64,000 bases of DNA from Pseudanabaena sp. Chao 1811 (GTDB taxonomy: Bacteria; Cyanobacteriota; Cyanobacteriia; Pseudanabaenales; Pseudanabaenaceae). Below are positions 7,544 through 9,144 of the stretch, piece after piece. The notes beneath the pieces were generated by a model that was not told the DNA's origin, made no database searches, and saw nothing but the letters and a program-made list of their open reading frames with translations. The stretch is from contig NZ_CP101416.1 in NCBI RefSeq assembly GCF_027942295.1, positions 62,001-126,000 on the forward strand, given 5' to 3'. How positions within the stretch are numbered: position 1 is the stretch's first letter; each line of letters opens with the position of its first letter. Made by a program: the position numbers and the translations under genes.

Positions 7544-8029
7544 TCACTGACTGAGGTAGTACTGATCATATAAATCATTCAAGTGGTAATGAATAAAAAC
7601 CTTAATATAATGAGGTTTACCATCATATTTGGCAGGAAAGTAGATCTGTTCAGGGTCTGGCAAAGCTTTAGATAAGTTCTCAAGCCGTCCTTCATAAATC
7701 TTATGGGGTTCTTGCTCTAAATAAAAAAGCGTACTGCCTACAGAAGATAGTTGCCAACCCTTTAAATGCTGTTTCCCTTCCATAGGAATGCCATTACGAA
7801 AATATTGGTAGACCTCTCCTGAAACCAACTTTTCACCATAATTAAGTTCACCATCTAAATGAAACCTTTCGTGAATAATTAGCGGTTTATCGCTAGAGTT
7901 AATGATAAACCAGCGAACATCATCCAACTTCTCATACTTTTGTATAGTGACTCCTTCGGGTAAAGAATCAACATCAATTGCAAGAGAGTACCCATATCTA
8001 GAAGGTGGCGGAATTGGGCGATCGCACAT
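7544..8029 (-). CDS. Conserved-looking hypothetical protein, 161 aa
   Basis: I do not recognise this soluble protein. It begins with a Pro-rich segment and has alternating hydrophobic strands (WFIINSSDKPLIIHE, GEVYQYFRNGIPMEG, KHYIKVF-like end), suggesting a small beta-rich fold. There are no Cys clusters, signal peptide or membrane segment. It starts 18 bp after the DUF2811 gene stop on the same strand, so both are likely co-transcribed. No good ribosome-binding site is seen before the chosen ATG. Confidence 0.6.
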   Translation of the reverse strand: MCDRPIPPPSRYGYSLAIDVDSLPEGVTIQKYEKLDDVRWFIINSSDKPLIIHERFHLDGELNYGEKLVSGEVYQYFRNGIPMEGKQHLKGWQLSSVGSTLFYLEQEPHKIYEGRLENLSKALPDPEQIYFPAKYDGKPHYIKVFIHYHLNDLYDQYYLSQ

Positions 8030-8047: not shown

Positions 8048-8275
8048 CTAGAGTGAGTGCTGAAATAAAGCGTTGAGATACACTTTGGCGGTGCTGCGAT
8101 AGCTATGGGATGCACCACCAAGGCGATCGCTGCCACCATTTTGTAATAGGAACAAAGATAAAGCTGCGGCAAATACGCGATCCTGATCCCAATCGGGGTG
8201 GGACTCTAGATAATTCTTGAGGGTTTCGTGCAATTCTTCAGGAATTTCGGCAAGGATGCTGACGGTCGTACTCAT
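8048..8275 (-). CDS. DUF2811-family small protein
   Basis: A 75-residue protein with the motif SILAEIPEELHETLKNYLE and WDQDRVFAAALSLFLLQN, which I recognise as the DUF2811 family widespread in cyanobacteria. The family has no known function; the helical pattern with an N-terminal strand is reminiscent of small DNA-binding or antitoxin-like ribbon-helix-helix proteins (inference). The C-terminal YRSTAKVYLNALF is conserved. A cluster of DnaA boxes lies about 290-350 bp upstream of its start. Confidence 0.75.
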   Translation of the reverse strand: MSTTVSILAEIPEELHETLKNYLESHPDWDQDRVFAAALSLFLLQNGGSDRLGGASHSYRSTAKVYLNALFQHSL

Positions 8276-8560
8276 GCTGAAACCTCAACTTTTAAACAAG
8301 TTTTGTAGGAATGTCGCAACCATTTTCAGAGGTCGGGACTTAATTGTGCGTTCAACTAGCAGTTCTTGTCAACGTAACGAAAAGATTAATGTAAAGGATA
8401 AATACATGAACAGCACTTGACAGAATCAGCATTATCATTGTTTTTCTTTTACATATCTTCATAAACTATCAGCTTCGAAAAGTTTTCCCAAGTGTGACAC
8501 TCTCCTCATTAATGAATCCTTAACCAGTAAGGCTGAAGCATGTTGATTTCTAAAACAACC
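8276..8560. other. Gene-free stretch upstream of DUF2811 gene
   Basis: A+T-rich and without a supported gene. It should hold the DUF2811 promoter. One degenerate DnaA-like word, TTTTCCCAA (about 8482-8490), is present; otherwise I see nothing. Confidence 0.4.
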
Positions 8561-8623
8561 TGTGGAAAACTCCTATTAATCTGTGGAAAAAGTCCCAATA
8601 TCTGTGGAAAACTCTGTGGAAAA
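8561..8623 (-). other. Cluster of four DnaA boxes (TTTTCCACA)
   Basis: Four exact copies of TTTTCCACA, read on the minus strand, at 8561-8569, 8582-8590, 8603-8611 and 8615-8623. The first three are spaced exactly 21 bp and the last 12 bp; all share orientation and the longer word AGTTTTCCACAG is nearly kept. TTTTCCACA is the usual cyanobacterial DnaA box. The adjoining 8624-8690 is strongly A+T-rich. The block could be an origin, a DnaA-titration site or a DnaA-controlled promoter; the gene orientations around it do not single out an origin. Confidence 0.7.
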
Positions 8624-8686
8624 CTTTTGATTTACCAACTTTAAAATTATTTATTTTTAATATTTCTGACATCTCCACTAAAAAAT

Positions 8687-8711
8687 AAAAGAGGGGCTTT
8701 GCCCCTCTTTT
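8687..8711. terminator. Terminator of the NfeD-MlaD-MlaF unit
   Basis: 11-bp arms (8687-8697, 8701-8711) with AAAAGAGGGGC/GCCCCTCTTTT sequence and a TTT loop, directly after the NfeD stop codon on the minus strand. Confidence 0.85.
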
Positions 8712-8712
8712 A

Positions 8713-9144
8713 CTATTGCAGCCAATTTTCAGGAACAACGATTAGGGTTGTGCCTTGTCGTCTTAAAACAATTACTTTCTGCTGAGCGGCGATCGCAATT
8801 TTGGGATCATCACACCTTGCTTTCCACGAGACTCCCTCATGCTGTACTCTGCCTGTCTGTCCTGCGGGAATTTCGGTCAGCGTAATCCCTTCACTCGATT
8901 CCTTAAGCTGATGGGAATCTCTAGGAATAAAGCGGCGCGATAGCACTACCAATATTCCTGAAGTTAGCATCCAAGCTACTATTTGCAAGGCAGGAATGGG
9001 CAGGATCAGTGTGATCGCAGCCACCAAAATTGCCGCTAGTCCCATTGCACCCGCAATCAACAATGTCGGTAATGGTACTAATAACTCAATTACCCAAAGT
9101 GCGATACCAATAATTAGCCAAACTTGACTAGGTGTAAAGTTCAT
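8713..9144 (-). CDS. NfeD-like membrane protein
   Basis: A 143-residue protein with two to three hydrophobic helices in the first 70 residues (WLIIGIALWVIELLVPLP, GAMGLAAILVAAITLILP, IVAWMLTSGILVVLS) followed by a soluble OB-fold (about 85-143, with GQTGRVQHEGVSWKARC). This is the short NfeD architecture, in which the domain often supports a flotillin/SPFH protein or a membrane protease. Its start overlaps the MlaD-like stop by 4 bp, making a three-gene operon with MlaF and MlaD-like genes and pointing to envelope maintenance. Confidence 0.82.
   Translation of the reverse strand: MNFTPSQVWLIIGIALWVIELLVPLPTLLIAGAMGLAAILVAAITLILPIPALQIVAWMLTSGILVVLSRRFIPRDSHQLKESSEGITLTEIPAGQTGRVQHEGVSWKARCDDPKIAIAAQQKVIVLRRQGTTLIVVPENWLQ

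Follow-up and report, generated by a model that had tools for sequence, protein, structure and literature searches.

Four DnaA boxes stand close together upstream of a small gene in the cyanobacterium Pseudanabaena sp. Chao 1811, which raises the question of what DnaA might do there. For cyanobacteria that have retained dnaA yet replicate without it, the function of DnaA is described as something that "remains unclear" (Ohbayashi et al. 2020, PMC7198777). The original prediction, made from the window (the whole 64,000-nucleotide stretch analyzed here), offered three functions for the boxes: an origin, a DnaA titration or reactivation site, or a DnaA-controlled promoter of the DUF2811 gene. We present here genome comparisons that make the last of these the likely answer, namely, that the boxes are an ancient regulatory array responsive to DnaA, through which DnaA would control the DUF2811 gene. 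The host genome is a single contig of 4.73 Mb, and the nearest named DUF2811 matches are from Pseudanabaena.

Results and Discussion

The array consists of four exact copies of TTTTCCACA within window positions 8561 to 8623, all on the minus strand and separated by 12, 21, and 21 bp in the 5′-to-3′ direction. The gene-distal box 1 (8615 to 8623) has the same register in Pseudanabaena relatives, and alignment supports box 2 (8603 to 8611) 12 bp from it, box 3 (8582 to 8590) 21 bp from box 2, and the gene-proximal box 4 (8561 to 8569) 21 bp from box 3. On the gene-distal side the array adjoins a flank of 82.1% A+T (8624 to 8690), which confirms the predicted arrangement of four exact same-orientation boxes beside an A+T-rich block. 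Beyond this flank are a perfect inverted repeat with a T run (8687 to 8711), the probable terminator of an NfeD-like gene, and that gene itself (8713 to 9144, minus strand; profile match to PF01957). On the other side is the gene to which we assign the array, a DUF2811 gene of 75 amino acids (8048 to 8275, minus strand; PF10929, E 1.3e-27). The array is intergenic, between two genes that share the minus strand, as predicted. An Rfam scan of the entire window at the gathering threshold gave no match, and the intergenic region is therefore not explained by a known RNA family. Beside DUF2811, a 161-amino-acid open reading frame (window positions 7544 to 8029) has no Pfam match.

Single boxes are unremarkable, with 19 matches in the window at up to 1 mismatch versus 24.6 expected; the unusual feature is their clustering. 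Genome-wide, TTWTCCACA is found at 126 places versus 60 for a reversed-word control, and among the 100 of these 126 places that were listed, the only cluster elsewhere that is equally large is one of 11 boxes beside dnaN. Box pairs with 21-bp spacing and up to 2 mismatches occur at 4 places (7 matches) in the whole 4.73 Mb. A pair at 1654812 (L003), where the surrounding sequence looks coding, was set aside.

The cluster beside dnaN bears on the proposed origin. The array is located at 0.0706 Mb, dnaN at 1.748 Mb, and dnaA at 3.066 Mb. The 11 TTWTCCACA boxes adjoining dnaN (1748807 to 1749310) are 1.68 Mb from the array and represent the usual cyanobacterial oriC arrangement; four of them display the same 21-bp phase (1749228 to 1749299). 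GC skew was sampled in 20 stretches. On the arm between 1.89 and 3.80 Mb, 8 of the 9 stretches have positive skew, and 7 of the remaining 11 are negative; the skew is weak, but an origin at dnaN accounts for it better than an origin at 0.07 Mb would. The array resembles this oriC-like cluster in its box word and, in this genome, in its 21-bp phase, and differs from a cyanobacterial oriC in having no adjoining dnaN or dnaA, 4 boxes rather than 11, a single orientation, and no clear GC-skew switch in the window profile. We therefore rejected it as the main origin, in agreement with the earlier argument that same-strand flanking genes speak against one. One of the sampled stretches (L077; G000:C1:1891840-1911839) has 32% GC and a strongly positive skew and is perhaps an island; the other 19 have 40 to 44% GC.

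It is barely credible that the array is instead a second DnaA-dependent origin that uses the A+T-rich flank as an unwinding element. The boxes and their 82% A+T flank would suit such a role, and some of the other lineages have AT-rich motifs on the gene-distal side: AATTCTTAT precedes the boxes at 74 of 163 loci (an uncontrolled count; e.g., L177, L176, and L174), and TTATYTT does so at 56 of 163 versus 3 in a control stretch. Several initiation places are also described for some cyanobacteria in PMC7198777, but the multiple-origin strains of that study initiate without DnaA. Together with the dnaN cluster and the skew, the persistence of an AT-rich motif in one dnaA-less genome (G148) and partly in another (G382), neither of which has any box left, argues against a second origin.

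Conservation was assessed with a sample of 100 DUF2811 loci; the 86 genomes that supplied them are all dnaA-positive and represent 31 families. The exact word TTTTCCACA in gene sense lies between positions −700 and −150 at 86 of the 100 loci. In the same loci, the antisense word is found at 14, five control words at 0 to 3, and the next two 550-bp stretches further upstream give 1 and 0; 200 shuffles yielded a mean of 0.3 and a maximum of 3. At least one TTWTCCACA is present upstream of DUF2811 in 80 of the 86 genomes (28 of 31 families) and two or more in only 42, with none in G350, G262, G109, G030, G036, and G081; these exact-word searches undercount degenerate boxes. The family of G081 (f29) becomes the 29th with an array through genera g113 (4/4) and g127 (G275).

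Other samples gave similar results. The best 80 of 236 named loci, which are the closest ones and are skewed toward Pseudanabaena and its neighbors, contain a sense TTWTCCACA within 800 bp upstream in 76 cases and an additional antisense box at one locus; for two of the four loci without one, fewer than 300 bp upstream were available. Pooling the 100 loci, these 80, and the window gives 181 loci, among which species may overlap between the constituent sets, and 165 of them have a TTWTCCACA box. An additional check of 18 placed loci, with L299 and L301 left out as short contigs, found a sense TTWTCCACA at 13; the misses were four loci of genus g45 and one of two copies in G345. Genus g45 (G081, G204, G212, and G227) has both dnaA and DUF2811 and contains no TTWTCCACA, only TTTTCCCCA (4/4), a word that would point either to drift once dependence on DnaA was lost or to a change in the specificity of DnaA. 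By pattern search, a 21-bp box pair lies a short way upstream of DUF2811 in 20 of 23 genomes of the window's genus, its own included (not in G008, G009, and G014), and other families have it in 7 of 15 genomes. The original prediction had called for a comparison of the boxes and their 21-bp phase in relatives; the boxes prove to be conserved, and a chance origin of the array is untenable for this reason. Small genomes of family f2 (G046, G264, G278, and G375) have 3 to 5 DUF2811 matches each, and boxes are found upstream of some of the copies examined and at others not.

The geometry is conserved as well. Successive TTWTCCACA spacings in the 181 loci (n = 172) are 21 bp in 106 cases, 12 bp in 22, 22 bp in 18, 33 bp in 7, and 11 bp in 6, with 13 others dispersed. 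Ahead of the first box stand weaker NNTCCMCA words, most commonly at 33, 22, 21, 32, 44, 43, 11, and 54 bp. Such near-whole-turn spacings would be expected for a DnaA filament along one face of the DNA, and TTTTCCACA is the published cyanobacterial DnaA box (PMC4674748, with in vitro work on Cyanothece DnaA). The predicted binding of DnaA to the array is strongly supported by these conserved boxes in helical phase and by their decay where dnaA has been lost, described below.

The array stays with the DUF2811 gene, as judged from its varied upstream neighbors and its scattered distance from dnaA. The nearest open frame upstream, defined mechanically from stop to stop rather than by gene curation, was compared at 40 loci; the frames form 30 unrelated groups, with 23 frames on the strand of the gene and 17 on the opposite strand. 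Expressed as a fraction of the contig, the distance between DUF2811 and dnaA in 31 genomes spans 0.01 to 0.50, a distribution indistinguishable from uniform (KS p 0.26); one copy was counted per multi-copy genome, on the contig carrying both genes, and the length of G027 is rounded. Plasmid copies of DUF2811 were examined in 8 of 13 records, and 6 of the 8 have TTWTCCACA upstream: five contain the exact box and one TTATCCACA, while two are without any. Plasmid genes with boxes of their own include L284, L286, L287, L288, and L290 (Acaryochloris, Aulosira, and Nostoc). A contig from a viral collection (L282; IMGVR_UViG_3300037420_002493) carries a divergent DUF2811 (45% identity) and has no boxes within 900 bp upstream of it.

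These data also bear on the proposed titration or reactivation function, in which the array would mainly be a DnaA control site of the datA/DARS type, acting by titration or as a nucleotide switch, with DUF2811 as a permanent neighbor. Escherichia coli datA, DARS1, and DARS2 are likewise non-origin DnaA-box clusters in noncoding DNA, with 3 to 6 boxes (PMC4585315). The several strong boxes outside oriC in fixed geometry are what such a site would have, as is the rank of the four-box array as the largest besides oriC (among 100 of the 126 places listed), and there are additional footprints between the array and the promoter. An exact inverted box is also found 44 to 46 bp past the last sense box at 14 of 100 loci from five families (including L204, L206, L207, L218, L230, L234, and L237), and degenerate ones (TGGGGATTT) take that place in many other loci and families, a count made without a control. 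Within E. coli, a single species, datA and DARS each keep a conserved distance to oriC (PMC4585315). The position of the array relative to dnaA, in contrast, is scattered across families in the 31 genomes; the array is tied to one gene, which it accompanies through changes of neighbors and onto plasmids, and a mere neighbor would not be lost with dnaA, as DUF2811 is. Titration or reactivation is compatible with the array but alone leaves unexplained both its attachment to DUF2811 and the co-loss of DUF2811 and dnaA, and we consider it unlikely to be the main function. A DnaA-controlled DUF2811 promoter is the best supported of the three functions, on the evidence of conservation, gene linkage, and co-loss.

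The co-loss was determined in 387 genomes, 367 of which have a DUF2811 match. dnaA is absent from 22, and 16 of these are also without DUF2811, as are only 4 of the 365 genomes with a dnaA match (Fisher test, 4e-20, with phylogeny ignored and no control gene family). Up to 9 or up to 16 candidates per genome were scored in this search; scoring of every candidate in G142, G148, and G154 left the result unchanged. Two of the 16 co-losses depend on G397 and G399, which were assigned as dnaA-less by elimination. Of the four dnaA-positive genomes without DUF2811, three are assemblies split into 90 to 460 contigs; in G393, the remaining one, dnaA is matched at only E 1e-4. In a smaller set of 146 genomes, 3 are without dnaA, two of them also without DUF2811. 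The two genes are mostly far apart on the contig. DUF2811 is still matched in six dnaA-less genomes, with in-frame stops in 2 and an intact frame in 4.

The co-losses are distributed over family f34 (8 genomes, 4 genera), family f40 (1 genome), family f31 (2 genomes each in genera g78 and g81), and family f32 (3 genomes in genus g131). In genus g78, DUF2811 is present in all 8 genomes whose dnaA match is strong and missing from the two dnaA-less genomes and from G393, with its weak dnaA match; genus g131 has one genome with both genes and three with neither. Since other species of g78 and g131 keep both genes, separate, recent losses are indicated there. The 16 co-loss genomes measure 2.9 to 5.8 Mb, 13 of them 3.8 to 5.8 Mb, and genomes of 1.6 Mb keep dnaA together with two DUF2811 copies; genome reduction by itself therefore does not account for the loss.

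The boxes themselves decay where dnaA is gone. No sense box remains in dnaA-less G148, G382, G352, and G279 (one antisense box in G279), and one remains in dnaA-less G299 and G339; in G299, the site 21 bp from the remaining box reads TTTTCCAAA. dnaA-positive members of g127 and g82 that were examined have 2 boxes (G275 and G360) or 3 boxes (G261 and G380). The upstream AT-rich motif GCAATTCTTA / AATTCTTA survives in G148 and partly in G382, and its retention indicates that the loss of boxes is not a loss of the whole region. In these genomes, retention of the boxes tracks the presence of dnaA, with g45 as the counter-case. The states seen (dnaA gone, array eroded, and gene intact or broken) suggest that dnaA was lost first.

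Sites of another DNA-binding protein, with the correlation to dnaA arising from a shared ecology (symbiosis, high ploidy, or genome reduction), would offer a different account of these losses. dnaA loss is known in symbionts and polyploids (PMC7198777), and the loss counts are uncorrected for phylogeny and come without a control gene. Against this account, most co-loss genomes are unreduced while the 1.6-Mb genomes keep both genes, the sequence is identical to the cyanobacterial DnaA box in the literature (PMC4674748), and dnaA-less genomes with a DUF2811 match have at most one sense box; we regard it as very improbable. Because the boxes stand upstream of DUF2811 in nearly all cyanobacterial groups examined and, like the gene, tend to decay where DnaA is lost, DUF2811 is likely to be an important target or partner of DnaA in addition to oriC.

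A promoter-like sequence lies between the array and the gene. A putative −35 element, TTGACA (8367 to 8372, minus strand), forms an invariant block in a 13-sequence alignment, in which a putative −10 element, CACAAT (8343 to 8348, minus strand), follows at 18 bp. CRTTGACA is found within 250 bp of the gene at 107 of 179 loci, a count made without a control. Two footprints on the minus strand are located between the array and this promoter: CCTTACTGGTTAAGG (8518 to 8532), conserved in Pseudanabaena (alignment A4), and CTTGGGAAAACTTTT (8478 to 8492), also from alignment, which overlaps a plus-strand DnaA-like word with 2 mismatches at 8483 to 8491. Some 190 bp separate the array from the putative −35 element, a long distance for a simple activator, so that looping, oligomer spreading, or a nearer or other promoter would be needed.

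In the mechanism we propose, DnaA would bind same-direction boxes about 1 to 2 helical turns apart (11 to 12, 21 to 22, and 33 bp), stronger and weaker ones together, and would probably assemble there into a cooperative filament along one DNA face. Acting on a sigma-70-like promoter some 190 bp downstream, it may then set DUF2811 transcription, by activation or repression, and the DUF2811 protein of about 75 residues would serve a DnaA-dependent process.

The protein matches the DUF2811 profile (PF10929) at 96.3 bits versus a cutoff of 26.6. Searches of Pfam, NCBIfam, and PDB returned no match pointing to a function; the profile has no significant match to another Pfam family or in PDB (best E 0.66). 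AlphaFold models built from 39 and from 64 sequences both show, at low confidence, three helices and no strand (pLDDT 55 and 56). A ribbon-helix-helix fold, in which a strand precedes two helices, was suspected from sequence but gained no support from the profile searches, with no RHH family among the Pfam matches. The word DUF2811 was not found in the open-license full-text literature searched, and among the matches listed there, no title concerns a cyanobacterial DnaA target gene.

The sda gene of Bacillus subtilis, whose product is a small protein, likewise has a DnaA-box cluster outside oriC and upstream of it. DnaA is the transcription factor that activates sda, where there are several DnaA boxes (PMC4447404, PMC8203912), and by analogy the logic of a DnaA-DUF2811 circuit may be comparable. 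In contrast to sda, the array is one-directional with a 21-bp phase, lies about 190 bp from the putative promoter, occurs phylum-wide, and belongs to an unrelated protein whose gene is co-lost with dnaA.

DUF2811 seems useful mainly where DnaA works and is therefore likely to be either an output of DnaA or its feedback partner. More tentatively, DUF2811 may be a cyanobacterial partner that exists only for DnaA, controlled by it through a filament array and either feeding back on it or coupling initiation to light and growth; possibly this circuit, not replication, is what keeps dnaA in cyanobacteria where it is dispensable for replication. Partners of DnaA elsewhere are Hda, SeqA, YabA, and SirA, whose place DUF2811 would fill. 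The array provides a concrete, phylum-wide candidate target of DnaA and a gene that vanishes with dnaA in several separate groups, and the question of what DnaA does becomes directly testable in strains in which dnaA can be deleted. If the proposed control is real, it would be the first functional assignment for the uncharacterized family DUF2811.

A site resembling HLR1, the RpaB site with the consensus given in PMC11633204, was considered as part of this proposal and dropped; the match in the window (8448 to 8463) has two mismatches. Within 400 bp upstream of DUF2811, HLR1-like sites are found exactly at 11 of 179 loci versus 2 for a scrambled pattern, and with up to 1 mismatch at 50 of 179 versus 16, mostly on the minus strand. 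Such a site could link the DUF2811 gene to light. Examples are L121, L152, L160, L201, and L237, and the site is also visible in an alignment of 24 loci.
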